Positions 1,430-43,182 of a DNA stretch of 64,000 nucleotides are shown here, piece by piece; the first letter of the stretch is position 1, and each line of letters opens with the position of its first letter. Below the pieces are notes generated by a model. That model ran no database searches. It was not told where the DNA came from and worked only from the letters and a program-made list of their open reading frames with translations. Made by a program: the position numbers and the translations under genes. Origin of the DNA: Candidatus Epulonipiscium sp. (lineage in GTDB: Bacteria > Bacillota > Clostridia > Lachnospirales > Defluviitaleaceae); assembly GCA_012518815.1 (NCBI GenBank), contig JAAYRK010000017.1, positions 1-64,000 on the forward strand, written 5' to 3'.

Positions 1430-1458
1430 AAATAGGAACAGTTAAACTGCTCCTATTT
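1430..1458 (-). terminator. Rho-independent terminator after nagB
   Basis: Twelve-base-pair stem with a three-base loop (AATAGGAGCAGT / ACTGTTCCTATT as read on the minus strand, one G-U pair) followed by a T run. The stem overlaps the nagB stop codon and closes the nagA-nagB unit. Confidence 0.85.
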
Positions 1459-2214
1459 AAGTAATGGAATTATTTCAGATGCAGCTTCTTCATCAACTAC
1501 AAAGGTAACATCAGGATGAACTTGCAAAATAGATGCCGGAACTTTAGGTGTAATTTCACCAAAAATAGTTTTCTTTATAATAGCTGCTTTATTTTTACCA
1601 TTAGCTAGTAACATAATTTTCTTTGCTAACATAATCGTTTTAATTCCCATACTTATTGCCTTTTTGGGCACTTCGTCAATTGAGTCAAAAAACCTTGAAT
1701 TTGCCTCAATAGTACCTTCATCCAAATATACAAGATGAGTAAAGGCTTCAAACTTATCATCTGGTTCATTAAAACCTATATGTCCATTATTCCCAATGCC
1801 TAATACTTGAAAATCTATTCCTCCGGCTTTAATAATCTTGTTTTCATAATTCTTGCATTCTTCTTCTATGTTTTCAACATTTCCATTAGGAATATTTATC
1901 CTATCTGTATCAATATTAATATGCTTAAATAAATTATCCATCATGTAATAATAGTAGCTTTGTGGATTATCTCTAGAAATAGGACAATATTCATCTAAAT
2001 TAAAGCTTGAAACTTGAGAAAAATCCAAGCCTTCTTCCTTATGCATACGAACCAATTCCTTATACATGCCAACAGGGGTTCCTCCAGTTGCTAAACCAAG
2101 TACACTTTGACTATTAAGACGTATTTGACTTGCTAACAAGTAAGCAGCTTGTTTGCTCATTTTTTCATAATTTGATTCAATATAGATTTGTATATTATTT
2201 AATTTATATTTCAT
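1453..2214 (-). CDS. nagB: Glucosamine-6-phosphate deaminase
   Basis: Converts glucosamine-6-phosphate to fructose-6-phosphate and ammonia, the last step feeding amino sugars into glycolysis. Family marks are present: phosphate-binding loop LGLATGGTP near residue 40, catalytic Asp in NLDEY near 75, and the signature GIGNNGHIGFNEP near 140. The frame is open further upstream, but ATG at 2214 follows GGGAAGGGG at about 9 bases and gives 253 residues, typical of the family. It overlaps nagA by 11 bases, so translation is probably coupled. The nagA-nagB pair completes the route from N-acetylmannosamine or N-acetylglucosamine. Confidence 0.95.
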   Translation of the reverse strand: MKYKLNNIQIYIESNYEKMSKQAAYLLASQIRLNSQSVLGLATGGTPVGMYKELVRMHKEEGLDFSQVSSFNLDEYCPISRDNPQSYYYYMMDNLFKHINIDTDRINIPNGNVENIEEECKNYENKIIKAGGIDFQVLGIGNNGHIGFNEPDDKFEAFTHLVYLDEGTIEANSRFFDSIDEVPKKAISMGIKTIMLAKKIMLLANGKNKAAIIKKTIFGEITPKVPASILQVHPDVTFVVDEEAASEIIPLLK

Positions 2215-3346
2215 ACAAAATTTTCCCCTTCCCAATTGTCATAGCAATGTTGATTTCTTCATCAAACACGGTAATATCCGCATCTTTTCCTATATCAAGA
2301 CTTCCTTTAATACTATCAAGTCCCAATACTTTTGCAGGATTTAAAGTAACAAGTTGAATTAGTTGAGGAATGCTATAATCTGTATGTTTGTAAACATTAT
2401 ATACTGCATTATTTAAATTAAGGACACTTCCTGCTAAAGTATTATCTTCTAATTTTGCTCTTTTATTCTTTACAAAAACTTTTTGACCTCCTAATTCATA
2501 TTCCCCATCTTCTTTTCCCCCTGCTGACATACAATCTGTCACTAGCACTATACCATCTAAGCCTTTTACTTTAAGCAACATGGAAAACAAGCCAGGGTGT
2601 ACATGAATTTCATCAGCTATAAGTTCACAACTAACATTACTAGTAAAAGCTGCACCTACAACTCCCGGATTGCGATGATGAAGCCCGGTCATTGCATTAA
2701 ATAAATGAGTTATATGACTTATGCCGCAAGTAATTCCCTCTAGAGTTTCTTCGAAAGTTGCATCACTATGTCCAATTGATAATACAATATTTGTTTCATT
2801 TTTTACCTTTTTAATAAAATCTAAAGCTCCCTCTAACTCTGGTGCAATTGTAATCAATGAAATTATATCTTTATGATCGTTTATTATATCATAATCAAAA
2901 GGAATTATATACTCTTTTTTTTGTGCTCCTTTAAATTTTTTATTGATAAAAGGCCCCTCTACATGAACCCCTAAAATCTCAGCTCCTTGGACTCCCTTTT
3001 CTTTTATTTTTCTTATATTATCTAATGCACGGTTTATATTTTCTATTGGCATTGACATGGTAGTTGGTAAAAAAGATGTTACACCATTTCTAGCTATTCC
3101 CTTGCTTATTGCTTGCATAGCTTCTTCAGTAGCATCCATTGTGTCAAAGCCATCAAAACCATGAATGTGCATATCAATAAAGCCAGGTGAAATATACTTG
3201 CCCTTTACGTCTATTTTTTCTATACCATCAATATTGTTTATTTCTTCTTCATTTATAATGTTTCTAATTTTTTCATCAAAAAGAATCGCTTTTTTGTGAT
3301 ATAACTTGCCAGAAATTATTATCTTTCCATTATATAAGCACTTCAT
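2204..3346 (-). CDS. nagA: N-acetylglucosamine-6-phosphate deacetylase
   Basis: Removes acetate from GlcNAc-6-P in the cytosol. The 380-residue protein shows the amidohydrolase metal sites GFIDMHIHG (about residue 55), HVEGPF (about 125), SIGHSDAT (about 190), and the downstream HLFNAM and TDCMSAGG motifs. The start at 3346 follows AGGAGGAG at 5 bases. It is first in a two-gene unit with nagB, separated by a terminator from the sialic-acid kinase gene upstream, so it is probably also used for general GlcNAc catabolism. Confidence 0.96.
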   Translation of the reverse strand: MKCLYNGKIIISGKLYHKKAILFDEKIRNIINEEEINNIDGIEKIDVKGKYISPGFIDMHIHGFDGFDTMDATEEAMQAISKGIARNGVTSFLPTTMSMPIENINRALDNIRKIKEKGVQGAEILGVHVEGPFINKKFKGAQKKEYIIPFDYDIINDHKDIISLITIAPELEGALDFIKKVKNETNIVLSIGHSDATFEETLEGITCGISHITHLFNAMTGLHHRNPGVVGAAFTSNVSCELIADEIHVHPGLFSMLLKVKGLDGIVLVTDCMSAGGKEDGEYELGGQKVFVKNKRAKLEDNTLAGSVLNLNNAVYNVYKHTDYSIPQLIQLVTLNPAKVLGLDSIKGSLDIGKDADITVFDEEINIAMTIGKGKILYEI

Positions 3347-11771: not shown

Positions 11772-13436
11772 TTACTTCTTCCATGAACTTTTTAAAGATA
11801 CAATTCTATTAAATACAAGCTTCTCTTTTGTAGAATCCTTAGTATCTACACAAAAATAACCATGGCGTAAAAATTGGAATTTATCACCTTTCTTAACTTC
11901 TTTCATTGAAGGCTCAATTATACAATTTTTTAAAACCTTTAAGGAATCAGGATTTACTATTAATTCACCGCTTTCTTCATCTTCTATAAACAGATAATCA
12001 TATAATCTTACTTCTGCTGGAATTCCATGAGAAGCCGAAACCCAATGAATGGTTCCTTTTACTTTTCTTCCTGTAAAACCACTTCCACTTTTGGTTTCTG
12101 GATCATAAGTACAACGCAATTCAATAATTTCTCCAGTTTTTTCGTCTTTTATAACTTCTTCGCATTTAATAAAATAAGCATTCCTTAACCTTACTTCTTT
12201 ACCAGGAGATAAACGGAAGAATTTCTTTGGTGGATCTTCCATAAAATCTTCTCTCTCAATATATATTTCTCTAGAAAATGGAAGCTGTCTTGTTCCCATT
12301 TCTGGATTTTCAGCATTATTCTCAACATCAAGCATTTCTATTTGTCCTTCGGGATAATTAGTTATAACAACTTTAAGAGGATCTAACACAGCCATAACTC
12401 TTGGTTTTTTTAATTTTAAATCTTCACGGATACAATGTTCCAAAAATGAGATATCCACTATTCCTTTGTTTTTAGCAACACCTGTTTTATAGCAAAATTC
12501 CTTTATAGCTTCAGGAGTATAGCCCCTTCTTCTTAAACCTGAAATTGTAGGCATACGTGGGTCATCCCAACCGTCTACAATATTTTCTTCTACTAAACTT
12601 CGAAGTTTTCTCTTACTCGTTACCATGTTTGAAATTTCAAGTCTTGCAAACTCTATCTGCTTAGGAGGATTCTTAATATTAAGTTCTTCTAAAAACCAAT
12701 TGTATAAAGGCCTGTGATCTTCAAATTCTAATGTACAAATAGAATGAGTTATCCCTTCAATTGCATCAGATAGGGGATGTGCAAAATCATACATAGGATA
12801 AATGCACCATTTATCACCTGTATTATGATGACTTACATGAGCGATACGATAAATAACAGGATCTCTCATATTTATATTAGGAGAAGCCATATCAATTTTA
12901 GCCCTAAGTACCTTTGCACCATCAGGAAATTCCCCATTTTTCATTCTAACAAATAAGTCAAGATTTTCTTCTACTGAACGATTTCTATAAGGACTTTCTT
13001 TTCCTGGTTCCGTTAAGGTACCTCTATATTCTCTAATTTCTTCAGCAGTTAAATCATCTACATATGCCTTTCCTTTCTTAATAAGCTCTATAGCATACTC
13101 ATAAAGCTTATCAAAATACCAAGAAGCATAATAAAGCCTATCTTCCCAGTCATAACCTAACCATTTTACATCTTCTTTAATTGACTCCACGTATTCTACA
13201 TCTTCTTTAGTAGGATTTGTATCATCAAATCTTAAATTACACAGGCCGCCATATTTTTCTGCAGTACTAAAATCTAGCCAAATTGCTTTAGCATGTCCTA
13301 TATGTAAATACCCATTAGGCTCAGGAGGGAAACGTGTATGAACTTTTTTACACACACCTTCTTCTAAATCTTTATCAATTATGTCATGAATAAAATTAGT
13401 AAACTCTTCATTCATTAAATTTTTATTAGACTCCAT
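11772..13436 (-). CDS. glnS: Glutaminyl-tRNA synthetase
   Basis: Charges tRNA-Gln directly with glutamine. The 554-residue protein resembles E. coli GlnRS throughout: [15 protein letters not shown] (HIGH motif, about residue 46), [35 protein letters not shown] (KMSKS region, about 270), [16 protein letters not shown], and the two C-terminal beta-barrels. The C-terminal half and the sequence separate it from GluRS. AGGAGG lies 10 bases before ATG 13436; a TTG at 13439 is also spaced well. Most Firmicutes make Gln-tRNA through GatCAB instead, so this gene suggests past transfer or a dual system. Confidence 0.95.
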
Positions 13437-13500
13437 CAACAGCCGTCCTCCTTATAGTAAATATTACTATTATTAGCTCATAATATTTATATCATACTCA

Positions 13501-18858: not shown

Positions 18859-21800
18859 TTATGCAAAGTAATCTATTCCTGCTTTAAATAATTTTTGATT
18901 TTTTTCTCCAACTATATTTTTAGCTACATTACTGCCTATTCTTTCTGAATGTCCCATCTTACCTAAAATTCTTCCATCTGGGCTTGTTATCGCTTCTATA
19001 GCATTCATGGAACCATTAGGATTATAGGCAATATCATAACTAGGATTTCCTTCAAAATCTACATATTGACTTGCTACTTGTCCATTTTCAAAAAGACTAT
19101 TCATCATTTCTTCATCTGCAACAAATCTTCCTTCTCCATGAGCTACAGCAATAGTATGCAAATCTCCTAATTCTACATTAGCAAACCATGGTGATTTAAC
19201 AGATACAATTTTAGTAGTAACCATAGTAGATACTGTACGGCCTAATGTGTTAAAAGTAAGTGTTGGAGAACTATTGTCAATATCTCTTATTTCCCCATAA
19301 GGTACTAAGCCTAATTTAATAAGAGCTTGGAATCCACTACCTATTCCTAGAATTAATCCATCCCTCTTATTTAAAAGATTCATAACTGCTTCTTTAACCT
19401 TAGGATTTTTAAATACAGTAACTATAAACCTTCCGCTACCTTCCAACTTATCTCCTGCATTATAACCACCAGGAAGAGCAATGATTTGAGAATTATTAAT
19501 TTCTTCTGCCAAACGATTGATAGAATCTTCAATATGAGAAGGAGTCAAATTCTTAAATACAAATATATTTCCTATGCCACCTGCATTCTCAAAGGCTTTT
19601 TGAGTTTCATACTCGGCATTAGTTCCTGGGAATAAAGGAATAATTACTCTTGGTTTTGCTATTTTCACTTTAGCTTTTTCGATGTTTCTAATAGAATAAG
19701 TTTTACTAATAGGTTTAACATTGGTTGTTTCTACCTTAGTTGGGAATACTTTTTCTAAAGTTTCTGTCCATGCTCCAATCATTTCTTCTATAGCAATTTC
19801 CTTATTATTAAGCTTAATATAAGGACTTTCCTGTGTTTGTCCAAGAACAATGTAACTGATATCATCAAAAAGATTTTCGTCAGCTTTATTTATCTCAAGA
19901 ATAAGAGATCCATAATTAGGTTCAAATAAAGCTTCTTTATCCATTTCTGCTGTAAAAATCATTCCAATTTTATTACCAAAACTCATTTTACTAATTGCCT
20001 CTGCAATTCCACCTAGCCTAATTGTATGAGCTGATAATACTTTTCCCTTTTGAATTAATTCTGTTACCTTAGAATATACTTTATCTAATTCATCAAAATC
20101 TGGAAGCTCATACTTGTCCCTCTTTAAAGGAATATAAATAACTGTGCTGTTAGCTTTTTTAAACTCTGGTGAAATTATCTTATCTGCTTTAGCAACATTA
20201 ACTGCAAAAGCTGTCAAGGTTGGTGGTACATCTAAGTCTTCAAAGGTACCAGACATACTATCTTTTCCACCAATAGAACCAGTTCCTAATCTTTTTTGAA
20301 CCAAGTATGCTCCAAGAACCGCACTAAAAGGTTTTCCCCATCTTTTAGGATCTTCACCTAAACGTTCAAAGTATTCTTGAAGAGTAAAACGAATAGTTTT
20401 ATAATCTCCACCGACTGCCACGACCTTAGCTGCTGCTTCTATCATCGCATATACTGCACCATGGAAAGGACTCCATCTCGACATTTTAGGATTGTAGCCA
20501 TGGCTCATAATTGTTGCTGTATTGGTATCTCCTTCTAAAACAGGAACCTTTGCAACCATACATTCCGCTGGAGTTAATTGATATTTACCACCATAAGGTA
20601 AAAGTACTGTACCTGCCCCTATAGTGCTATCAAACATTTCGACAAGACCTTTTTGACTACATATATTTAAATCTTTAAGATTTGCAAGCCAAGCTTCTTT
20701 AATATCTTCAAGCTTTTCCTTAACTTCAGGTAAAATAGTATTAAAGTAATTATCCTTAGCTTCAGGATTAACTACGTGAACATCTGCGTAATGGACCGCA
20801 CCATTACTATTTAAGAAAGCTCTGCTAATATCAACTATAGCATTACCCTTCCAAAACATCGTTAATCTTTTTTCTGATGTAACTTCTGCTACTACTGTAG
20901 CTTCTAAGTTTTCTTCTTCAGCAAGAGCTATAAACTCATTTACCTTATCTTTTTCAATAACAACTGCCATTCTCTCTTGAGATTCAGAGATAGCTAGTTC
21001 TGTTCCATCTAAACCTTCATATTTTGTAGGTACTAAATCAAGATTTATCTTAAGTCCGTCAGCCAATTCCCCAATAGCAACGGATACTCCACCTGCACCA
21101 AAGTCATTACAACGTTTTATCATCTTACTTACTTTTGGATTTCTAAAGAGTCTTTGAATGTGTCTTTCTATAGGAGGGTTTCCTTTTTGTACTTCTGCAC
21201 CACAAGATGTAAGGGATTCCTCAGTATGTTCCCTAGAAGAACCTGTTGCTCCTCCGCAACCATCTCTACCAGTTCTACCACCTAAAATAATGATGATATC
21301 TCCTTCTTCTGGAACACCTCTTAAAACATTTTCCCTGGGAATTGCTGAAATAACTGCACCTAGCTCCATTCTCTTTGCTACATAACCTTCATCATATATT
21401 TCTGCAACATGACCTGTAGTAAGACCTATTTGATTACCATAAGAACTATATCCTTGTGCTGCTTCTATAGTAATTTTTCTTTGAGGTAGTTTTCCTGGCA
21501 ATGTGTCTTTTACCAAAGTTCTAGGATCTCCACTACCTGTTATACGCATAGCTTGATAAACATAAGAACGTCCTGATAAGGGGTCTCTTATTGCTCCTCC
21601 AAGACAAGTATGAGCTCCACCAAAAGGCTCTATCTCTGTTGGATGGTTATGAGTTTCATTCTTAAACATTATAAGCCATTCTTCATCTTTTCCATCAACA
21701 TCAACATTAACTATAATGCTGCAAGCATTTATTTCATCAGATTCTTCAAGATCATCTAATTTGCCTAATTTCTTTAATTCTTTCATTCCCATTAAAGCAA

Positions 21801-22629
21801 TATCCATTAAAGTTATACTCTTTTTATTTTCTCCATAAATTTTTTCTCTTCCTGCTAAATATTCTTCATAAGCTTCTTTAATAGGAACTGTAAATTCTCC
21901 ATCTTCAATCTTTATATTTTTAATATTAGTCAAGAATGTAGTATGTCTACAGTGGTCTGACCAATAAGTATCTAAAACTCTTATTTCTGTAATGCTAGGA
22001 TCTCTTTTTTCTTCGTTTTTAAAGTAATCTTGACAGAATTTAAAATCATCATAATTCATTGCTAATCCTAATTCTTTTCTTAAAGCTTCTAACTCTTCTT
22101 CATTACAATTAATAAAGCCTTCTAGATATTCTATTTGTTGGGGACTAGCAAATTCCATCTTTAAAGATGTTGGTTTTTCTAAAGCAGATTCTCTTGAATC
22201 AACAGGGTTAATACAATAGCTTTTAATTTTCTTAAATTCTTCATCAGATATATTACCTTTTACAATTATTACTTTTGCTACACGAACTGTAGGTTTTTCT
22301 TTACAAGTTAATAATTGAAGACATTGTGAAACAAAATCAGCTCTTTGGTCATATTGTCCTGGAAGGAATTCTGCTGCAAATATTTTTTCGTCTTTATCAA
22401 TTGTAATTTCCTCATCAAAAACCATATCTACCGGAGGTTCGGAAAAAATTGTGTTACGAGCTTTTAAGTAAGTTTCCTCATCAATATCTTCAATATCATA
22501 ACGATAGATAATTTTTAAATCCTTTAATGAATCAATTAGTAAATTTTCTTTTATGTCTTTTAATAAATTAGTAGCTTCAATGTCAAGTTCAGCTTTTCTT
22601 TGAACAAAAATTCTTCTTACTTCTTTCAT
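18859..22629 (-). CDS. purL: Phosphoribosylformylglycinamidine synthase, single chain, glutaminase cysteine missing
   Basis: ATP-dependent amidation of FGAR to FGAM, step four of purine synthesis. The 1256-residue chain has an N-terminal PurS-like region, two AIRS-type halves (HTTFLTNIKN, NETHNHPTEIEPFGGAHTC, GRTGRDGCGGATGSS, NDFGAGG) and a C-terminal class-I glutaminase (from about residue 1000; PLFPGTN, LPGGYNAGD, AHGEGRF). At the nucleophile elbow, where the family has GICNGFQ, this protein reads GIGSGFQ (codon GGT at 19339-19341), so the cysteine is absent although His and Glu in AHGEG remain. It may depend on free ammonia. It lies apart from the other pur genes, with a possible promoter (TTGTAA-N16-TATTAT) just upstream. 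Confidence 0.95.
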   Translation of the reverse strand: MKEVRRIFVQRKAELDIEATNLLKDIKENLLIDSLKDLKIIYRYDIEDIDEETYLKARNTIFSEPPVDMVFDEEITIDKDEKIFAAEFLPGQYDQRADFVSQCLQLLTCKEKPTVRVAKVIIVKGNISDEEFKKIKSYCINPVDSRESALEKPTSLKMEFASPQQIEYLEGFINCNEEELEALRKELGLAMNYDDFKFCQDYFKNEEKRDPSITEIRVLDTYWSDHCRHTTFLTNIKNIKIEDGEFTVPIKEAYEEYLAGREKIYGENKKSITLMDIALMGMKELKKLGKLDDLEESDEINACSIIVNVDVDGKDEEWLIMFKNETHNHPTEIEPFGGAHTCLGGAIRDPLSGRSYVYQAMRITGSGDPRTLVKDTLPGKLPQRKITIEAAQGYSSYGNQIGLTTGHVAEIYDEGYVAKRMELGAVISAIPRENVLRGVPEEGDIIIILGGRTGRDGCGGATGSSREHTEESLTSCGAEVQKGNPPIERHIQRLFRNPKVSKMIKRCNDFGAGGVSVAIGELADGLKINLDLVPTKYEGLDGTELAISESQERMAVVIEKDKVNEFIALAEEENLEATVVAEVTSEKRLTMFWKGNAIVDISRAFLNSNGAVHYADVHVVNPEAKDNYFNTILPEVKEKLEDIKEAWLANLKDLNICSQKGLVEMFDSTIGAGTVLLPYGGKYQLTPAECMVAKVPVLEGDTNTATIMSHGYNPKMSRWSPFHGAVYAMIEAAAKVVAVGGDYKTIRFTLQEYFERLGEDPKRWGKPFSAVLGAYLVQKRLGTGSIGGKDSMSGTFEDLDVPPTLTAFAVNVAKADKIISPEFKKANSTVIYIPLKRDKYELPDFDELDKVYSKVTELIQKGKVLSAHTIRLGGIAEAISKMSFGNKIGMIFTAEMDKEALFEPNYGSLILEINKADENLFDDISYIVLGQTQESPYIKLNNKEIAIEEMIGAWTETLEKVFPTKVETTNVKPISKTYSIRNIEKAKVKIAKPRVIIPLFPGTNAEYETQKAFENAGGIGNIFVFKNLTPSHIEDSINRLAEEINNSQIIALPGGYNAGDKLEGSGRFIVTVFKNPKVKEAVMNLLNKRDGLILGIGSGFQALIKLGLVPYGEIRDIDNSSPTLTFNTLGRTVSTMVTTKIVSVKSPWFANVELGDLHTIAVAHGEGRFVADEEMMNSLFENGQVASQYVDFEGNPSYDIAYNPNGSMNAIEAITSPDGRILGKMGHSERIGSNVAKNIVGEKNQKLFKAGIDYFA

Positions 22630-27180: not shown

Positions 27181-28199
27181 ATCTCCACCCCTGTCTCACT
27201 TTCAACAACTTCTCCTATAAGATAAGCTTTTTCTCCAATACTTGAAAGTATAGAAAGGGCTTTTTCTTTTTCACTTTCATCAATAATTATAACCATTCCT
27301 ATTCCCATATTAAAAGTATTATACATGCTCATTCTGCTGACATTGCCAAGTTCTTCAGTTAATTTAAAGATGGGAAGTATCTCCCAAGTTCCTTCATAAA
27401 CTTTTGCTCCAAGTCCCTTTGGAAATGCTCTAGGGATATTTTCAATAAAGCCTCCACCTGTAATATGACTAATCCCTTTTATATCAACAGCTTCTTTTAA
27501 TTTATTAATAGTATTTACATATATCTTAGTAGGTTTTAATAGTTCTTCACCTAAAGTACAACCTAAAAGTTCTATATATTCATTAACATTATCTTTGTTG
27601 GGATTAAATATTTTCCTGATAAGAGAATATCCATTGCTATGAATTCCACTTGAAGCTAAACCAATTAAAATATCACCTTTTTTAATTCTGCTTCCATCAA
27701 TAATTTTTTCTTTATCAACTATACCTACACAAAAGCCTGCCAGATCATATTCATCTTCAGGATAAAAGCCTGGCATTTCTGCAGTTTCTCCTCCTATTAA
27801 TGCTGCTCCTGCTTGTTTACAACCTTCTGCAACTCCCTTAACAATTTCAGCAATTTTCTTAGGTATATTTTTGCCACACGCAATATAATCTAAGAAAAAC
27901 AGGGGTTCTGCTCCAGAACATGCAACATCATTAGCACACATTGCAACACAATCTATGCCTATAGTATCATGTTTGTCAGTAACAAAAGCTATCTTAAGCT
28001 TAGTACCAACGCCATCTGTACCAGAAACTAAAACAGGCTCCTTCATTTTATTTTTTGCAATAGAAAATAAGCCTCCAAAACCACCAATATCCGTTAATAC
28101 TTCAGGCCTGTAAGTACTCTTTACATAGTCCTTCATTAAGCGAACTGCTTCATAACCTGCTTCTACATCAACACCAGCACTTTTATAATCCATACTCAT
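27168..28199 (-). CDS. purM: Phosphoribosylformylglycinamidine cyclo-ligase
   Basis: Makes AIR from FGAM. 343 residues: [13 protein letters not shown] near the N-terminus, [15 protein letters not shown] (about 57), [18 protein letters not shown] (about 88), [11 protein letters not shown] (about 137) and [13 protein letters not shown] (about 243). It overlaps purF by 4 bases and purN by 13 bases. Confidence 0.97.
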
Positions 28200-29599
28200 T
28201 TTTCTTCCTCCTTATCAACTTTTATAGGATAATTTCCGTCAAAACAAGCAGTACAAAAACCACATTTAGCTCCAATAGGTGTTTTCTTAAGACCTTCAAT
28301 GGATAAAAAGGCAAGGCTGTCAGCACCTATTAACTTGGCTATTTCTTCTATGGAATAATGATTTGCAATTAGATTTTTCCTGTGTGGAGTATCAATTCCA
28401 AAATAACATGGGTAATACACAGGTGGAGAACTTATTCTAATATGAACTTCTTTGGCTCCTGCATCTTTTAGCATTTTAACAATTCTCTTACTAGTTGTTC
28501 CCCTTACTATAGAATCATCTATCATAATAATTCTTTTACCTTCAACTTGACTTTTAAAAGGATTTAATTTTAATCTTACGGCTTGCTCTCTCATTTCTTG
28601 ACTAGGTTGTATGAAAGTTCTTCCGATATATCTGTTTTTCATTAGCCCATCCCCATAGGGAATTCCACTTTCTCTTGCATAACCTATCGCAGCAGTAAGC
28701 CCAGAATCTGGTACCCCTATAACCAAATCTGCATCTACAGGTTGTTCTTTTGCAAGGATTTTACCAGCTTCTAATCTCGCCTCATATACATAGGCTCCGT
28801 CAATAATACTATCTGGTCTTGCAAAATAAACAAACTCAAAAATACACATTTTAGATTCTTTAGGTGCTTCAGTTTGTATGGATTTCATACCTTCTTCATT
28901 AGCAATTACAATTTCCCCAGGCTTTACATCTCTAATAAATTTTGCACCTACTGTTTCAAGAGCTGCTGTTTCAGAAGAAAAGATATAGGAATCATCTTTC
29001 TTTCCAATGCATAAAGGTCTCATACCTAATGGATCCCTAGCTGCAATTAATTTGTGAGGAGTCATAATTAAAAGAGAATAAGAGCCCTTAATTTGTTTCA
29101 TTACCTCAACCAATGACTCTTCTATACTGTGATGTTTAATTCTTTCACTTGAAAGAAGAGCTGCAATAACCTCTGCATCACTATAAGATTGAAATAAAAA
29201 TCCCCTTTCTTCCAAATCATTTCTTATTTTATTTGCATTTATCAAACTTCCATTATGAGCAAGTGCCATATGTCCCTTAGTATATTTTAGCACTAAAGGT
29301 TGGGCATTTTCTCTTTGACTTTCTCCAGATATAGTAGCTCTTACATGTCCAATTGACATTTTGCCATGTAAATGGCTAAGAATCACATCATCAAATACTT
29401 CCGATACCATTCCCATTTCTTTGTGATAAATAATAGTTCCGTTATCGTTAATAGCAATTCCTGCACTTTCTTGTCCCCGATGTTGTAATGCATATAATCC
29501 GAAATAAGTCATTTCTGCTGTATTCCAGTTATTACTGTTATAGATACCAAAGACACCACATTCATCATGAAACTTATCATCTACAAATTCCTGATGCAT
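28196..29599 (-). CDS. purF: Amidophosphoribosyltransferase with altered glutamine loop
   Basis: First committed purine step, PRPP plus glutamine to phosphoribosylamine. 467 residues of the B. subtilis type: a short propeptide ending at HDE before the catalytic Cys of [16 protein letters not shown] (oxyanion Asn), PRPP loop [13 protein letters not shown] (about 345), and cysteines for a [4Fe-4S] cluster ([21 protein letters not shown]). The glutamine loop, GHVRYxT in the family, is GHVRATISG here: Arg is kept but the Tyr is Ala (codon at 29336-29338). AAAGGAG precedes ATG. First gene after the guanine riboswitch. Confidence 0.96.
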
Positions 29600-33472: not shown

Positions 33473-34054
33473 TTATTTTATTTTTCGACTTCCAGGCTTT
33501 ATTAAAGCCATCTTTCCTTCTTTACAAATTGGACATTCTTCTGCTTCATAAGACACTACATCTACAGTTAAAGCTGCTCTAAGTTTTGTCCCAAAATCAA
33601 CTTTTCCATTGCTCCTATCTACTAAAACAGCTACTCCTGCCAATTCTCCACCTTGTTCTTTAACTATATCTATAACTTCCATGACAGAACCTCCAGTTGT
33701 AATAACATCTTCTGCTACAAGTACTCTAGTTCCTTTTGGAATAGTAAAGCCCCTTCTTAAGGTCATTTTTCCATCTTCTCTTTCTGCAAATAAGTTTTTA
33801 CATTTTAATTGTCTTGCTAATTCATAGGCTATAATAATTCCACCCATAGCAGGCCCTACAACCATATCTATATTGTCATCTTTAAATTCTTCTGCTAAAC
33901 CTTTTGCAATTTCTTCAGCATAATTTGGATATTGTAAAATTTTTGCACACTGCATATATTGATTACTGTGTCTTCCTGAAGTTAATTGAAAATGACCTTC
34001 AAGTAAAACTTCTGTTTCTTTAAAAATTTCTATAACTCGGTCTTTACTTAACAT
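33473..34054 (-). CDS. pyrE: Orotate phosphoribosyltransferase
   Basis: Converts orotate plus PRPP to OMP. 193 residues: HFQLTSGRHSNQYMQCAK (about residue 21), VVGPAMGGIIIAYELA (about 61), and the PRPP loop VLVAEDVITTGGSV (about 111). The CPIC segment near the C-terminus is common in the clostridial group. Last gene of the operon, 43 bases after pyrD. Confidence 0.96.
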   Translation of the reverse strand: MLSKDRVIEIFKETEVLLEGHFQLTSGRHSNQYMQCAKILQYPNYAEEIAKGLAEEFKDDNIDMVVGPAMGGIIIAYELARQLKCKNLFAEREDGKMTLRRGFTIPKGTRVLVAEDVITTGGSVMEVIDIVKEQGGELAGVAVLVDRSNGKVDFGTKLRAALTVDVVSYEAEECPICKEGKMALIKPGSRKIK

Positions 34055-34097
34055 CTATAATCCTCCATCATTATATATTATTCTTTATAAAAGCATA

Positions 34098-35012
34098 TTA
34101 AATAATAGCTCGAATTTCATCTAAAGACTTTATACCATAAAGTTTCATGTATTCTTTAATACCTTCTAGTACATCTATGCTTGCCCTTGGATTTCTAAAA
34201 TTAGCAGTGCCTACAGCTACTGCCTTAGCCCCAGCTAATAAAAATTCTATAGCATCTTCTCCTGTTGCTATACCTCCCATCCCAATTATGGGTACAGATA
34301 CTGCCTTAGCTACTTGATAAACCATTCTAAGAGCAACGGGCTTTATGGCTGGCCCAGAAAAGCCACCTACAACATTAGCAAGAATAGGTTTTCTTTTATG
34401 GATATCTATTGCCATTCCAAGCAAAGTATTAATAAGTGATATGGCATCTGCTCCCCCTTCTACTACTGCCCTTGCTATTTCTGTAATGTCCGTTACATTT
34501 GGACTTAATTTAACTATAAGGGGTTGTTTTGCGTAACGTTTTACTTCTTTGGTAACTTTATGTGCCATTTTTACATCAGTTCCAAAGGTTACTCCACCTT
34601 CTTTTACATTAGGACAAGAAATATTAAGCTCAATTAAATCAATATCTGCACTAGATAATCTTTCTACTACCTCGCAATATTCTGGTATAGACTTACCAGC
34701 AACATTTACTATAATTTTTGTGTCATATTGGCGAAGAAAAGGAATATCATTTTTTATAAATTCTTCTACACCAGGATTTTGCAAACCTACGCTATTTAAC
34801 ATACCACCATAGGTTTCTGCAATTCTTGGAGCAGGATTTCCTTTCCATGGAATACTGGACACTCCTTTTACTGTCACTGCTCCTAATTGATTAAGATCTA
34901 TAAATTCTCCATATTCCCTACCAGAGCCAAAAGTCCCAGAAGCTGTGGTGATGGGATTTTTTAATTCTACTCCTGCAATATCAACTTTAAGATTAAGATT
35001 TTCTTTATTCAT
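34098..35012 (-). CDS. pyrD: Dihydroorotate dehydrogenase, class 1B catalytic subunit
   Basis: FMN subunit that oxidises dihydroorotate using NAD through PyrK. 304 residues from ATG 35012 (GAGGTGG, 6 bases); the longer open frame has no site and lies in pyrK. Motifs: [11 protein letters not shown] (about 21), the catalytic Cys in [11 protein letters not shown] (about 131), [12 protein letters not shown] and [16 protein letters not shown] near the end. It overlaps pyrK by 8 bases. Confidence 0.97.
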
Positions 35013-35778
35013 CCCATACCACCTCATCACTCCAAAATACTGGACCGTCTTTGCAGACCTTTTTATGCTGCCAGTCCTGTTCATCTTTTTCTTTAACTTT
35101 ACATACACAGCCTACACAAGCCCCTATACCACATGCCATTCTTTCTTCTAAGGATACTTGCATAGGAATATTATTATTTTTTGCCCATCCTGCAACAGCT
35201 TTTAACATTGGTTTAGGGCCACAACTGTATATAATATCCCCAACTGCATTATTGTTTTTTAGAAGTTCTAAAACATTTCCCTTAAAGCCTTCCAAGCCGT
35301 CATCTGTAGCTATGTGAACCCTTGCTCCAATTTTTTCGAATTCTTCTATTAGCATAGCTTGACTTCTAAAGCCTAAATATACATCTACTTCACCTTTTAA
35401 ATGCTTGACAAGCTCTACTAATGGAGGAGTTCCTAAGCCTCCTCCTACAATTATATTTTTTCTTTTTGTCTCATCAATCATAAAGCCATTACCTAAAGGC
35501 CCTAATACTTCTATACTTTCTCCTCTTTTGATATTACCAAATTCCTCTGTCCCTTTTCCAACTACTCCATAAACAAGAACTATTCTGCCTTTTTCTTTAT
35601 CTATTTCACAAATACTTATAGGTCTTGGTAAAAGCCTTGACTCTGCCTTGCAATATAAGTTTACAAATTGGCCTGCCTTTGCTTTTTGGGCAATATCTTT
35701 TATATCTAAAGTCATACTGTATATGTTTGGCGATATTAATTTATTGTCAACTACAAGAGCATTTTTAATTTCCTTCAT
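35005..35778 (-). CDS. pyrK: Dihydroorotate dehydrogenase electron-transfer subunit
   Basis: FAD and [2Fe-2S] partner of PyrD, 257 residues. FAD-binding RPISI (about residue 53) and GVVGKGT, NAD-binding [13 protein letters not shown] (about 112), and a C-terminal cluster site [14 protein letters not shown] plus a later Cys in [10 protein letters not shown]. It overlaps carB by 14 bases and pyrD by 8 bases. AGGAGG precedes ATG. Confidence 0.97.
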
Positions 35779-38700
35779 GACTTCCTCCTAAGTTATATAC
35801 ATCAATATCTTTAAAATCAATCTTAGAATCCATAACCATAAGCAGAGCCTTAACAGTATCTAAAGAAGTAAACAAATCAACAGAAGCTTCAATGGCTGCT
35901 CTTCTTATTCTAAATCCATCTCTTTTAGAATCATTACCTTTAGTTGGCGTATTAATAACTATATCAATCATACCGCTTCTTATAATATCTAATATATTAG
36001 GAACTCCTTCACTAATCTTTTTAACTTCAGAAACTGGAATATTTTCTTTTTCTAATAATTTTGCTGTTCCTTCTGTTGCTACAAAGCGGTATCCGTATTC
36101 TACAAAAGCCTTCGCTATAGGTAAAAATTCTTTTTGGTCATAGGGTTTAATAGTTGCAAGAATGGTACCATTTCCTTTAGGAATTTTCCCACCTGCTGCT
36201 AAAAAGCCCTTATATAAAGCTTCATTAAGAGTTCTGCCAACTCCTAGAACTTCTCCTGTAGAACGCATTTCTGGACCTAAGCTCACCTCTACCCTTGGAA
36301 GCTTTTCTGTTGAAAATATAGGAACTTTAACTGCTATTAATTCTGCTTCCTTATAAATATCTGTACCATAACCCAAGTCTCTTAAATTTTCTCCTAACAT
36401 TACCCTTGTTGCAATATCAATAACTGGCACTCCTGTTACCTTACTAATATATGGCACTGTACGGCTTGAACGAGGATTAACTTCTATTATATATAATTCA
36501 TTTTCAAATTCAATAAACTGAATATTTACCATCCCTATAACATTTAAAGCAAGGGAAACTCTTTTGGTATAATCTAATATTTTTTCTTTTATCTCTTGTG
36601 ATACATTTTGACTTGGATAGATAGTAATACTGTCACCTGAATGTACTCCAGCCCTTTCTAGATGCTCCATGATACCAGGTATTAATATATCCTTACCATC
36701 ACAAATTGCATCAACTTCAATTTCTCGTCCAATTAAGTATCTATCAATTAATACGGGATTTTTTGAATCTCTTTCAAAAGCCTCTCCTAAATACTGTTTT
36801 AATTCTTCCTCATGATAGGTTATTTCCATCCCTTGCCCCCCCAAAACATATGAAGGACGAACCAGTACAGGATAACCTAAATTTTCAGCTTCTTTTAAAC
36901 CTTCTTCAAGGCTCCATACTGCCTTACCTTTTGGTCTTTTAATGCCTAGTTCTTCTAATAGAGCATCAAATTTTTCTCTATCTTCTGCTGCGTCAATTTG
37001 TTCAGGTTTTGTTCCATAAATGGGTATATTCATTTCTCTAAAAAATTTTGCTAGTTTAATTGCAGTTTGTCCTCCAAATTGAAGAACAACACCGTCAGGT
37101 TTTTCTTTTTCTACTATATTTAAAACATCTTCTTCTGTTAAAGGTTCAAAATATAATTTATCCGATATATTAAAGTCTGTACTTACTGTTTCAGGATTAT
37201 TGTTTACAATAATTGTTTCTAATCCTGCTTTCTTTAAGGATAGTACACTGTGAACAGAACAATAGTCAAATTCAATTCCTTGTCCAATTCTAATAGGTCC
37301 AGAACCAATTACCATTACTTTTTTCTTATTGGATACTTCCACTTCATCATATTCATCATAAGTTGAATAATAATAGGGTGATTCTGCATTAAACTCACCT
37401 GCACAGGTATCTACCATTTTATAAACAGGATTAATACCCCATTCTTCCCTTAACTTATAGATTAACTGAGGACTAACCCCCATAAAATCTGCAATACCTT
37501 TATCTGAAAAACCTTTTTTCTTAAGCATATAAAGATAATCTCTAGTTAAATCTTCAATCCTCATTTGCTTTAAGTTTTCTTCTTGCTCAACAATCCACTT
37601 GATTTTTTCCACAAAAAAGGGATCTATCCCAGTAATTTTACACACTTTTTCCACACGATAGCTTCTTCTTATCATTTCTGCTAAATCAAAAATTCTTTCA
37701 TCATCAGGAACTTGAACCCTTTGCTTTAATTCATCTAAATTTCTTTTTGAAGATGATTTTTTATTTAAAGAATACTGACCTATTTCCAAGGAACGAATTC
37801 CTTTTAAAAGGGCAGCTTCAAAATTATTTCCTATAGCCATTACTTCCCCTGTTGCCATCATTTTAGTTCCAAGAGAACGTTTAGCACCATGGAATTTATC
37901 AAAAGGCCACTTTGGTATTTTTATAACAACATAGTCCAGGGTAGGTTCAGAACAAGCATAAGTCTTGCCTGTTACAGTATTTTTAATCTCATCTAATCTA
38001 TATCCTAAAGCAATTTTTGTTGCTACCTTTGCAATTGGATAACCTGTAGCTTTTGAAGCAAGGGCAGAAGAACGGCTAACTCTAGGATTAATTTCTATAA
38101 CTGCATATTCAAAGCTTTCGGGATTAAGGGCAAATTGTACATTACAGCCACCCTTAATTCCAACTGCATCAATAATATCTAGGGCCGCATCCCTTAACAT
38201 TTTATTTTCTTTATCTGATAATGTTTGACTTGGAGCAACTACTATACTATCACCTGTATGTACTCCTACAGGATCGATATTTTCCATATTACATACAACG
38301 ATACTATTACCATCTTCATCTCTAATAACTTCATACTCTATTTCTTTCCAGCCTTTAATACTTCTTTCAAGAAGTACTTGGCCTACTCGGCTTAAATGTA
38401 AGCCATGACCTAATATTTCTTTTAATTCCTCTAAATTATTGGCTATTCCCCCTCCTGTACCCCCCAAGGTATAAGCAGGACGAACAATTAAAGGGTATCC
38501 TATTTTATCAGCAAATTTTATCCCGTCTTCTATATTGGTGACAATTTCACTTTCAACTAAGGGTTGACCAATTCTTTCCATTAAGTTCTTAAAACCTTCT
38601 CTGTCTTCCCCTTCTTTTATAGATTCTATAGAGGTTCCAATAATTTTAACCCCATATTTATCAAGGATTCCTTTATCATAAAGTTCTACAGCCAGGTTTA

Positions 38701-38986
38701 ATCCTGTCTGACCTCCCATCCCTGCCAACAAGCTGTCTGGCCTTTCTTTTTGGATAATCCTTTCAATGACTTCAGTAGTTAAAGGCTCTATATAAATACT
38801 ATCTGCAATTTCTTTGTCTGTCATAATAGTTGCAGGATTACTATTAATCAGTACAACTTCCACTCCTTCTTCTCTTAAAGCCTGACAAGCTTGAGTTCCG
38901 GAGTAATCAAATTCTGCCGCCTGGCCTATTACAATAGGACCGGAACCGATTACCATTACTTTTTTTATGCTTTTATCCCTTGGCAT
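35765..38986 (-). CDS. carB: Carbamoyl-phosphate synthase large subunit
   Basis: Makes carbamoyl phosphate from bicarbonate, two ATP and ammonia. The 1073-residue chain has two homologous ATP-grasp halves ([17 protein letters not shown] at the start and [17 protein letters not shown] at about 563), an oligomerisation part between, and an allosteric MGS-like domain at the end (about 935-1060). ATP sites look intact ([32 protein letters not shown]). Its usual ammonia source, CarA, lacks a glutaminase triad here. It overlaps carA by 22 bases. Confidence 0.97.
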
Positions 38987-40032
38987 ACTGCTTCTCCTTC
39001 CATTGCATTGATAAACCAGTTATAAATATTGCCTATATCTCTATATCCGGGATAGAATTGAATCCCTACAAGCGGCAATTCTTTATGGACAAAACCTTCA
39101 ATTGTATTATCATTTATATTTACATGAGTCTTTATTGCATTTTCTGGCAACTCTACTATGTCGTAAGAATGATTTTGAGCAGTTATAAGTACTTTATTAG
39201 TATTTAAATCTTTTACAGGATGATTTGCTCCTCTGTGTCCATGTTTTGATTTTTTTATAGTACCACCAAGACTTTTAGCTAAAAGTTGACAACCTAAATC
39301 AATAGCTAATATAGGTTTTTTACCAACTAACTGTTTGATATTTTCAACTGCCCACGGAACATCTAAAGGACTACCAGGTCCGTTAGATAAAAGAATTCCC
39401 TCGGGATTTGTTTTTAAAAGCTCTTCTGGAGTTGTGGTTGCTGGGAAAACAGTCATAAAACAATTTCTTTCCTTTAAAAAATTGATAATACTTTGTTTTA
39501 TTCCATAATCTATAATTGCAATATGATGTCCTGTACCTTCTATTTCATATTTTTCCTTTGTTGTTACTTCAGCAACTGCATTTATATTATGATAGCTGTT
39601 TATTTTTTGCTCAATTTGGCTTTTTGTAAGCTCTCTTACAGTAATAATCCCTCTCATACTGCCGTGATTTCTTAAACTTCTTGTTAGTGCCCTTGTATCT
39701 ATGCCTTCTATTCCAATAACCTTGTTTTGTTTTAAGAATCCATCCAATTCCATTTCACAACGCCAGTTATTAGGAAAGTCTGCCTTTTCTCTAACAATAA
39801 GACCTCTTACTTTTACATTTTGGGATTCCATGTCTTCTAAATTGATACCGTAATTACCTATAAGAGGATAAGTCATGGTTACAATTTGTCCATAGTAAGA
39901 AGGATCTGTCAATACTTCTTGATATCCTGTCATTTCTGTATTAAATACAACTTCTCCGATAGTTTCCTTTATATATCCAAAGGCAGTTCCATTAAATATT
40001 GTTCCATCCTCCAATATCAATGTTGCTTTCAT
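38965..40032 (-). CDS. carA: Carbamoyl-phosphate synthase small subunit with degenerate glutaminase triad
   Basis: 355 residues with normal N-terminal CarA domain ([27 protein letters not shown]) and a class-I glutaminase fold ([26 protein letters not shown]). All three catalytic residues are changed. The family ICLGHQL elbow reads IDLGCQL (Asp in place of the nucleophilic Cys, codon 39298-39300), and the family QYHPE reads QFYPG (His to Tyr, Glu to Gly, codons near 39046-39054). The protein should not hydrolyse glutamine but may still cap CarB. It overlaps pyrF by 4 bases. Confidence 0.95.
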
Positions 40033-40955
40033 GCTAATGCCCCCTGCAAATCTTTTTTCATATCTAATACTGCTTGCTTTGAAGCAAGAGCAAATTCTTT
40101 TTCAGTAAAATCTTTTTTATATTTTTCTAACTTATAAGCTCCAATAATCCCTCTGGATGAATTTACGATTGCTCCTAATCCATTTTTGTCAAAACAAACT
40201 GCCAAGTCTTTTGCTGTTCCACCCTGAGCTCCATAACCAGGTACTAAGAAAAATGTATGAGGCATAAGTTCTCTAAGTCTTTTAGCTTGTTCTGGGTGAG
40301 TAGCACCAACAACTGCTCCTACATGACTGTAGCCTCTTTTTCCCATTACTTCTTCTCCCCAGTTAGAAACCAGTTTACCAACTCTTTCGTATAATTTTTC
40401 CTTTCCAACTTCTAAATCTTGAATTTCTCCACTATTAGGATTAGAAGTTTTAACTAAAATAAATAAACCTTTATCATAATCTTTACAATGTTTTATATAT
40501 GGCTCTATTGAATCATAGCCTAAATAAGGATTAAGGGTAATACTATCTTCATGATAAACTTCAAAGCTTTCATCTTCTACTTTAACCCTTCCTATATGAC
40601 CATCAGCATACGCCTGTGCAGTTGAAGCAATATCACTTCTTTTAACATCCCCAATTATTATAAGTCCCTTTTCTTTAGCATATTTAATTGTATCAATATA
40701 AGCTTGTATTCCTTCAGGTCCAAATTGCTCGTACATAGCTACTTGAGGTTTAACAGCAGGCACAAAGTCATATATCTCATCAATAATTGTTTTATTAAAT
40801 TTTAGAAAAGCCTCTGCTACTGCCTTAGGAGTTTTCCCCCACTTTTCATAAGCTTCTTCTTTTATAAAAGTTGGTATCATATCTAACCTTGGATCCAAAC
40901 CTACTACTGTAGGATTTTCTTTAGTTTCTATTTGATTTATTAATCTGTCAATCAC
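40029..40955 (-). CDS. pyrF: Orotidine-5'-phosphate decarboxylase (long type)
   Basis: Last UMP step. 308 residues, the longer type found in clostridia. Motifs: TVVGLDPRLDMIP (about 17), the catalytic GDVKRSDIAST (about 100), LNPYLGYDS, GAVVGATHP (about 211) and VPGYGAQGG (about 231). Fifteen bases after pyrC, with a 4-base overlap into carA. Confidence 0.96.
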   Translation of the reverse strand: MIDRLINQIETKENPTVVGLDPRLDMIPTFIKEEAYEKWGKTPKAVAEAFLKFNKTIIDEIYDFVPAVKPQVAMYEQFGPEGIQAYIDTIKYAKEKGLIIIGDVKRSDIASTAQAYADGHIGRVKVEDESFEVYHEDSITLNPYLGYDSIEPYIKHCKDYDKGLFILVKTSNPNSGEIQDLEVGKEKLYERVGKLVSNWGEEVMGKRGYSHVGAVVGATHPEQAKRLRELMPHTFFLVPGYGAQGGTAKDLAVCFDKNGLGAIVNSSRGIIGAYKLEKYKKDFTEKEFALASKQAVLDMKKDLQGALA

Positions 40956-40970
40956 TCTTATCCTTCCCTT

Positions 40971-42260
40971 CTAATCCATTAACTCTCCATTATCAACAAC
41001 TATTTTGCCAGCTACAATTGTATATTTAACTTTCCCTTTAACTTTGTGACCATTAAAAGGAGTGTTTTTACTCTTGGAAACAAAAGAATTTGCATCAATT
41101 AGGTATTCTTCATTAGGATCAACTATGGTTATGTCTGCAACCTTTCCAACTTCTAATGAACCTTTATCTATTCCTAAAAGTTTTGCAGGATTTGTACTCA
41201 TTTTTTCTATTAATTCTAATGGACTTATTATATCTTCTTCCACTAAATGAGTGATTCCTAAGGCTAAAGCTGTCTCTAAACCTACAATTCCAAAGGCAGC
41301 CTTATCATATTCACAATTTTTTTCATCTATATGGTGGGGTGCATGGTCTGTTGCAATGATTTCAATAATATTATCTTTTAGGGCCTTTTTAATACTTTCT
41401 ACATCTTTTTTAGCCCTAAGAGGTGGATTCATTTTGGTATTAGCATCATATCCTTCCACTGCTTCATCTGTTAGAGAAAAATGATGTGGACAAACTTCAG
41501 CAGTAACTTTTTCTCCCCGCAATTTTGCTTCTCTAATTAACTGAACACTACCCTCTGTACTAATATGGCAAATGTGTAGCTTTACCCCTGTACTACGAGC
41601 TAAAATAATATCTCTTGCTACAATCACTTCTTCTGAATCAGCACTTATGCCTTTCATCCCTATTCTTTGAGCCATTTCTCCTGCATTCATAACACCGCCT
41701 CCAACAAGACTCATATCTTCACAGTGAGAAAAAACTGGGAGATTAAACATACTTGCATATTTCATAGCTTTCTTAAGAAGACCTGCATTTTCAACGGATT
41801 TTCCGTCTTCGCTTATGGCGCATATACCAGCTTGTGCCATCAAGCCAATGTTTGAAAGTTCTTCTCCCTTTTGCCCTTTAGTAATACTGCCAATAGGAAG
41901 CACATTTACCACTGCTTCTCTTTCTGCTTTCATTTTTATATATTCTACTAGAATTTCGTTATCAACTACTGGATTTGTATTGGGCATACAGCATATAGTA
42001 GTAAATCCTCCTTTAGCTGCCGCCATACTTCCTGTTTTTATTGTTTCTTTATATTCATAACCAGGTTCTCTTAAATGAACATGAACATCTATAAAACCTG
42101 GGCTAACCCAAAGACCTTGGGCATCTATTACTTTGTCTGCCTTTTCCTCTATCTTATCTTCAATTGCTATTATAATTCCATCCTCAACCAGTATATCTTT
42201 TTTCCCATCTATCTTGGATAAAGGATTCAGAAGCCGACCATTTTGTATTAGTAACCTCAT
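40971..42260 (-). CDS. pyrC: Dihydroorotase
   Basis: Cyclises carbamoyl aspartate. Class-I enzyme of 429 residues: metal site DVHVHLREPG (about 58), CMPNTNPV, HCEDMSL (about 180), LHICHIST (about 232) and ATDHAPHH (about 304). ATG at 42260 follows AAAGGAG at 8 bases. The start lies 77 bases inside pyrB, whose frame runs on past it. Confidence 0.96.
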   Translation of the reverse strand: MRLLIQNGRLLNPLSKIDGKKDILVEDGIIIAIEDKIEEKADKVIDAQGLWVSPGFIDVHVHLREPGYEYKETIKTGSMAAAKGGFTTICCMPNTNPVVDNEILVEYIKMKAEREAVVNVLPIGSITKGQKGEELSNIGLMAQAGICAISEDGKSVENAGLLKKAMKYASMFNLPVFSHCEDMSLVGGGVMNAGEMAQRIGMKGISADSEEVIVARDIILARSTGVKLHICHISTEGSVQLIREAKLRGEKVTAEVCPHHFSLTDEAVEGYDANTKMNPPLRAKKDVESIKKALKDNIIEIIATDHAPHHIDEKNCEYDKAAFGIVGLETALALGITHLVEEDIISPLELIEKMSTNPAKLLGIDKGSLEVGKVADITIVDPNEEYLIDANSFVSKSKNTPFNGHKVKGKVKYTIVAGKIVVDNGELMD

Positions 42261-43182
42261 CTTTCTTTCTCCTTTCAATCAATAAATCTATAATTGCCAT
42301 TCTAACTGCAACTCCGTTTTTTACCTGTTCATTAATAAGAGATTGTTCTCCATCAATAATATCTGTACTTAATTCAACCCCTCTGTTAACAGGTCCAGGA
42401 TGTAAGAGTATCGCATCTTCTTTTGCATATTTCATTAAATCTTTATTAACTCCAAAAATTTGACTATATTCTCTAAGGTCAGGAAAGAGCCCTCCTTTTT
42501 GTCTTTCCAATTGAATACGTAATCCCATTACTACATCTGCATCTTTTAGAGCTTCTTTTAGATCTGTTGTTACCTTTGCCCCAAGACATTCGATGTTTTT
42601 ATCAATTAAAGTAGCTGGACCACACACTACTACTTCAGCTCCTAATTTCTTAAGCCCAAAAATATTACTTCTTGCTACCCGACTATGAGCTATATCTCCA
42701 ATGATTGCTACTTTTAAATCTTTAAAATTCTTTTTCTTTTCATATATAGTAAAGAGATCTAATAAGGCTTGGGTAGGGTGTTCATTTATTCCATCCCCTG
42801 CATTTATTACAGAAGCATTTACATTTCTAGCTAATAGGTTAGCTGTCCCTGTCATACTATGACGGATAACCATTATATCAAAACCCATTTGGTCTAAGGT
42901 AACTCCTGTATCTACTAAACTTTCACCTTTATTAACACTACTAGTTGCAACACCTAAATCAGTAACTCTGGCTCCTGTATATTTTCCTGCCATAGTAAAA
43001 GACATTTTTGTTCTTGTACTATTTTCATAAAAAAGTGTTACCATATTATAATTTTCAAGAGTATTTTCTCTTAACTTTTTATTATTAATCCTTAACTTCA
43101 TCTTTTCTGCCGTATGGATAATTGACAGAATTTCGAAAGGACTTAAATTCTTAATTCCTAATAAATCCTTATTTTCTAACAT
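42184..43182 (-). CDS. pyrB: Aspartate carbamoyltransferase with C-terminal extension
   Basis: Catalytic chain, 332 residues; the family is usually near 305-310. Motifs: YENSTRTKMSF (about 51, carbamoyl-phosphate loop), VIRHSMTGTANLLA (about 102), GDGINEHPTQALLD (about 128), HSRVARSN, and LHPGPVNRGVEL (about 260). The conserved core ends near IIDLLIERR; about 25 further residues (TKWSASESFIQDRW...) are encoded over the pyrC ribosome site and start. No pyrI follows. First gene of the operon, behind a PyrR-type leader. Confidence 0.95.
   Translation of the reverse strand: MLENKDLLGIKNLSPFEILSIIHTAEKMKLRINNKKLRENTLENYNMVTLFYENSTRTKMSFTMAGKYTGARVTDLGVATSSVNKGESLVDTGVTLDQMGFDIMVIRHSMTGTANLLARNVNASVINAGDGINEHPTQALLDLFTIYEKKKNFKDLKVAIIGDIAHSRVARSNIFGLKKLGAEVVVCGPATLIDKNIECLGAKVTTDLKEALKDADVVMGLRIQLERQKGGLFPDLREYSQIFGVNKDLMKYAKEDAILLHPGPVNRGVELSTDIIDGEQSLINEQVKNGVAVRMAIIDLLIERRKKDEVTNTKWSASESFIQDRWEKRYTG

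Follow-up and report, generated by a model that had tools for sequence, protein, structure and literature searches.

The window, a stretch of 64,000 nucleotides from Candidatus Epulonipiscium sp. in the family Defluviitaleaceae, belongs to a MAG (G000) of 117 contigs and 2.19 Mb that is 92% complete. On its minus strand lies a pyr operon, pyrB-pyrC-pyrF-carA-carB-pyrK-pyrD-pyrE (33473..43182), whose gene order is identical at locus L034 (JAAYML010000039) of a congeneric MAG (G001, 85% complete). The open reading frame at 38965..40032 (minus strand; 355 amino acid residues) was identified by profiles and alignment as carA, which encodes the small subunit of carbamoyl-phosphate synthase (CPS); it scored 412 bits against NCBIfam PRK12838 and 400 bits against TIGR01368, both exceeding the cut-off, it matched PDB structures of the E. 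coli CPS small subunit and of human CPS1, and a fold search agreed. The product has a CPSase_sm_chain domain and a class I GATase fold (the AlphaFold model, moderate at pLDDT 67, served solely to confirm the fold), and the gene shares the operon with carB (35765..38986, minus strand), which encodes the CPS large subunit. The Cys-His-Glu triad of the GATase, however, is represented by Asp, Tyr and a deletion, and CarA is thus predicted to be glutaminase-dead.

The nucleophile elbow (39283..39303, minus strand) aligns as IDLGCQL, with Cys269 replaced by Asp and the adjacent His272 by Cys (E. coli numbering). The replacement of the nucleophile, which the original prediction had pointed out, was confirmed by the alignment and recurs in the congener (LDLGCQL); the Asp codon, GAT, is two base changes away from Cys. 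The motif QFYPG (39046..39060, minus strand) had been read earlier as a substitution of both remaining triad residues. Alignment with E. coli CarA and 60 or more relatives upheld the change of His353 to Tyr but not that of Glu to Gly: QFHPEACPGP has become QFY----PG by a 4-codon deletion, with which Glu355 and about three neighbours are gone. In addition, G313, beside N311, has become Ser, and residues S47, N311, L270 and Q273 are unchanged.

These changes are not confined to the window genome. The CarA of the congener (81% identical) carries both LDLGCQL and QFYPG, and the deletion extends to a MAG of another genus of the same family (G003, 98% complete), which holds two CarAs, both damaged: one reads INLGYLL (Cys to Asn) and has the same 4-codon deletion, and in the other His is replaced by Gln. 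Since the window genus and G003 did not group together in a tree of the 168-residue N-domain of CarA, a common origin of their loss rests on the shared deletion. The relatives in other genera of the family include Defluviitalea phaphyphila, which identifies the family as Defluviitaleaceae of the order Lachnospirales, and those in genera g2 and g4 have at least two carA copies with intact Cys-His-Glu. A search for a second, normal carA, as had been proposed earlier, found one copy each and no further one in the window genome (92% complete) and in the congener (85%). Because argG was not found in these two genomes either, an arginine-specific carA copy is not to be expected in the genus.

To define near-invariant columns of CarA, we required at least 95% conservation among 42 CarAs treated as intact; one of these rows (L033, a G047 protein) turned out to be a dead CarA. 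None of the 39 such columns in the N-domain was altered in the window CarA, and 10 of the 45 in the GATase domain were, all 10 being altered in the congener too. Identity to an intact relative was 56% in the GATase domain and 79% in the N-domain, intact pairs being equal in both, whereas between the two congeners it was 80% and 83%, suggesting a burst of change after which constraint was renewed. The Nei-Gojobori dN/dS between the congeners was 0.13/0.75 (about 0.17) for the GATase domain, 0.092/1.16 (about 0.08) for the N-domain and 0.04/0.96 (about 0.04) for CarB. Judged by these ratios, selection on the GATase domain is relaxed, yet not neutral, and the N-domain and CarB are still under purifying selection. 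The pathways might instead be decaying to auxotrophy, with CarA on its way out, as the absence of ArgG, HisH and PyrG from the genus and the drift of GATase sites could be taken to indicate. We regard this as quite unlikely, given that dN/dS lies at about 0.03-0.07 for CarB, PyrB, PyrC, PyrD, PyrE and PyrF, that both species have the whole operon in colinear order, and that CarA is in frame with a constrained N-domain.

The original prediction had also described carB as looking intact. This holds for the ATP-grasp residues and for the catalytic and tunnel positions examined, as known for the E. coli enzyme, but not for the patch 258-265 (38192..38215, minus strand), which reads DKENKMLR, with Y261 replaced by N and Q262 by K, both at positions invariant in 30 CarBs paired with an intact CarA; the patch has changed together with CarA. 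In those 30 CarBs, E. coli included, 270 positions are invariant, and each lineage with a dead CarA alters 3-16 of them; some residue of the patch (D258, Y261, Q262, R265) is altered in every such lineage. When the changes were placed at random in 20,000 trials, in a simulation with equal site rates, 13 hits within any 8-residue window of CarB occurred 0 times, and five lineages sharing one window occurred 46 times; the patch was spotted post hoc, for which the scan over any window allows. We infer that it is a candidate element coupling CarB to the glutaminase. Residues 258-265 show strong conservation over the range from E. coli to the Clostridia.

CarA is one of several unrelated GATases in the window genome in which some catalytic or glutamine-binding residues have been lost. 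All three PF00117 matches (CarA, TrpG and GuaA) appear dead. TrpG, in the trp operon (L001:1495-2073), reads ILGISLGHQ (Cys to Ser) and LQFNPES (His to Asn), and the congener (L069) has GVGLGHQ (Cys to Gly) with the same His to Asn change in QFNPES. In GuaA (L003:3-1352, minus strand) the GATase domain is about 75 residues shorter and has neither elbow nor His-Glu motif, and the congener (L174) shares this shortening and likewise has no triad. In both GuaAs the synthetase loop VDHGLLRKNEG appears as VDTGLMRKNER. Within the window, the fused FGAM synthase gene purL (18859..22629, minus strand) has a GATase elbow (19327-19350) of LGIGSGFQ for LGICNGFQ, again a Cys to Gly change. The congeneric PurL (L114) keeps its Cys and is unusually divergent, and was perhaps acquired from elsewhere. 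PurF (28196..29599, minus strand) and AsnB both keep Cys1, with erosion of the glutamine site in PurF (VRYST to VRATI at 29318-29350, NGN to NGS) and changes from RRLS to RCLS and from NGE to NSK in AsnB.

Several glutamine-dependent sites persist. The E-K-C triad of NadE is present in all genomes compared. Directly after the Cys stands a Glu to Gln change, at a residue to which a role in glutamine gating has been ascribed (PMC6946656). The congener retains an intact-looking GlmS in addition to the Cys of PurL, and the GuaA and AsnB motifs of G003 are intact. A PF07685 match in the congener was rejected as a GATase, its sequence reading as DJ-1/PfpI-like. Because GlmS, PurL Cys and the NadE triad are kept, glutamine use is apparently reduced, not abolished.

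The inventory of nitrogen metabolism genes is consistent with a diminished role of glutamine. In the window genome we did not find PyrG, GlmS, GltB (GOGAT), HisH, GatA, AmtB or GSI; all of these except GlmS were likewise absent from G001 and G003, whereas G002 and G004 have them. Single absences could be gaps, since the two MAGs of the window genus are 92% and 85% complete. PyrG loss by itself was rejected as a special mark, because it is absent from 9 of 57 relatives; besides G000, G001 and G003, six other relatives of the order gave no match. GlmS was not found in G003 (98% complete) either, where glucosamine-6-phosphate perhaps comes from NagB in the amination direction; in the window, a nagB-like gene for glucosamine-6-P deaminase (1453..2235, minus strand; sequence reading) might offer a way to GlcN-6-P from ammonia in the absence of GlmS. 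GSIII is kept and well conserved in the window genome, and retention of a gene read as glutaminyl-tRNA synthetase (11772..13439, minus strand) indicates that translation still needs free glutamine. With GSIII, glutamine is still made, and a separate, diffusing glutaminase could supply ammonia in trans to all the synthetases with dead amidotransferases together. We nevertheless consider a supply in trans very improbable: no GlsA-type glutaminase was found in five genomes, the pyr operon has no other glutaminase gene, and an excess of ammonia agrees better with the GDH-like genes and with the lost AmtB.

Most relatives in our census of CarAs from the order were intact. Besides the window genus and G003, triad-less CarAs occurred in G014 and G035 (Cys to Gly in both), in G200 (Cys to Gly, His to Thr, Glu to Asp) and in one of the two CarAs of G047 (Cys to Asp, His to Arg, Glu to Gly; the Cys to Asp change and the loss of Glu are as in the window), the second CarA of the same genome being intact. 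The losses in other families of Lachnospirales (L255, L256, L258 and L033) are independent. On the N-domain tree, five triad-loss changes were required and at least four were forced by well supported branches. Other amidotransferases are affected in these lineages as well: G014 and G035 also have a Cys to Gly change in PurL, and G200 has Cys1 to Ser in AsnB and motif changes in PurF and GuaA. Since G200 entered through a pattern survey, the list of lineages is a biased sample. The sequences themselves document the loss of sites, the retention and constraint of the synthetase parts, and the parallel losses.

The original prediction compared this enzyme to vertebrate CPS I. Human CPS1 has no nucleophile Cys (PMC4655335), and vertebrate CPS1 retains an inactive glutaminase-like domain as structure and uses ammonia as its substrate (PMC4655335); the window CPS likewise has a retained GATase domain with the Cys replaced. 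CPS1, however, is one fused chain, requires N-acetylglutamate and serves the urea cycle, whereas here a pyr operon holds carA and carB as separate genes, and none of the three triad residues is left. Our best reading is that the window CPS works like CPS I without being a member of that type. With bacterial CarAB (CPS II; E. coli 1a9x) it shares the fold, the operon, the CarA N-domain and, in CarB, the residues of catalysis and of the tunnel, and it differs in the missing Cys-His-Glu and the eroded CarB patch. E. coli CPS variants whose glutamine tunnel was blocked or perforated kept normal function when ammonia was supplied from outside; a second way in for ammonia has been suggested for CPS1 and, with less clarity, for the E. 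coli enzyme (PMC4655335).

The resemblance to CPS I and the loss of all three triad residues could also mean that CPS alone was selected for ammonia, for instance in detoxification or regulation. This is highly doubtful, as erosion within this one genome extends to TrpG, GuaA, PurL, PurF and AsnB, and the missing argG leaves no sign of a urea-type cycle in the genus. Ammonia feeding as originally predicted is still the best reading, in view of the missing triad, the only CarA found, the kept CarB residues and purifying selection; its restriction to CPS has given way to a genome-wide loss. Similarly, a structural CarA under purifying selection agrees with the role suggested earlier, but losses in at least four lineages point to a relaxed need for glutamine, with abundant ammonia, rather than to a selected change in CPS alone. 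A sequencing or assembly error, for which one might cite the fragmented assembly, is refuted by the identical changes in the independently assembled congener, the deletion common to another genus and the number of separate genes affected.

We therefore favor, with a probability of roughly 0.8, the reading that CarA is glutaminase-dead but structurally retained and that CarAB uses free ammonia, as one case of a cell-wide switch. The substrates of CarAB would be free ammonia, bicarbonate and two ATP, and its product carbamoyl phosphate. In this Defluviitaleaceae genus, nearly all amidotransferases (CarA, TrpG, GuaA, PurL and, in part, PurF and AsnB) have lost their glutamine-hydrolysing sites and kept the synthetase parts, and free ammonia, abundant in anaerobic digesters, would be the direct nitrogen donor. 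Under constantly high ammonia, glutamine hydrolysis, AmtB and GS-GOGAT would no longer be needed, and the glutaminase parts would have decayed wherever the synthetase can take ammonia directly, leaving the glutamine made by GSIII mainly for protein (through GlnRS) and for the few enzymes still hydrolysing it. That ammonia is the donor in vivo, that an ammonia-rich habitat is the cause and that CarA has a structural role we infer; anaerobic digesters with 2.3-2.7 g/L ammonium and a Defluviitaleaceae MAG have been described (PMC8067321). The results thus suggest that a lineage of anaerobic bacteria feeds free ammonia into nucleotide, tryptophan and asparagine biosynthesis. It seems reasonably probable, with less confidence, that this lineage, with partial parallels elsewhere in Lachnospirales, swapped glutamine for ammonia in nearly all amidotransferase reactions, that its glutaminase domains are structural remnants, and that coupling to a working glutaminase explains the conservation of CarB 258-265 elsewhere.

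Cells are usually taught to hold too little free ammonia for biosynthesis, hence the use of glutamine and channelled ammonia. If our reading is true, a lineage in which unrelated enzymes have lost their glutaminase sites would put this scarcity rule to a natural test, and the repeated natural knock-outs would allow one to ask why dead GATase subunits persist, besides bringing to light a patch of CarB that is tied to coupling with the glutaminase. Annotation pipelines label such proteins 'glutamine-hydrolyzing', of which they are very probably incapable.

Partial precedents are known. Single-domain NadE (type N) performs ATP-dependent amidation with free ammonia in vivo (PMC3376133), but unlike the window CPS has no glutaminase whatsoever. 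The same work, which surveyed about 600-800 genomes by counting genes and not catalytic residues, found CarAB, GuaA, PyrG, PurL, anthranilate synthase and AsnB never without a glutaminase component (PMC3376133). CPS III of Alcolapia fish has shifted convergently toward ammonia in an extreme nitrogen setting, although there the triad is kept, only one glutamine-binding residue is changed and a single enzyme is concerned (PMC7657897). We found no report of genome-wide amidotransferase loss in the open-access literature, an absence that weighs little.

An initial pattern search of the DNA for GxxLGHQ elbows without Cys was discarded because of interfering matches to ribosomal protein S2 (GVHFGHQ). 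The repeat survey, a lower bound because the pattern is blind to substitutions outside it, such as that in the window CarA, returned mostly Obg and chance frames together with at least four true cases, namely TrpG of G001, TrpG of G003, CarA of G014 and CarA of G200.
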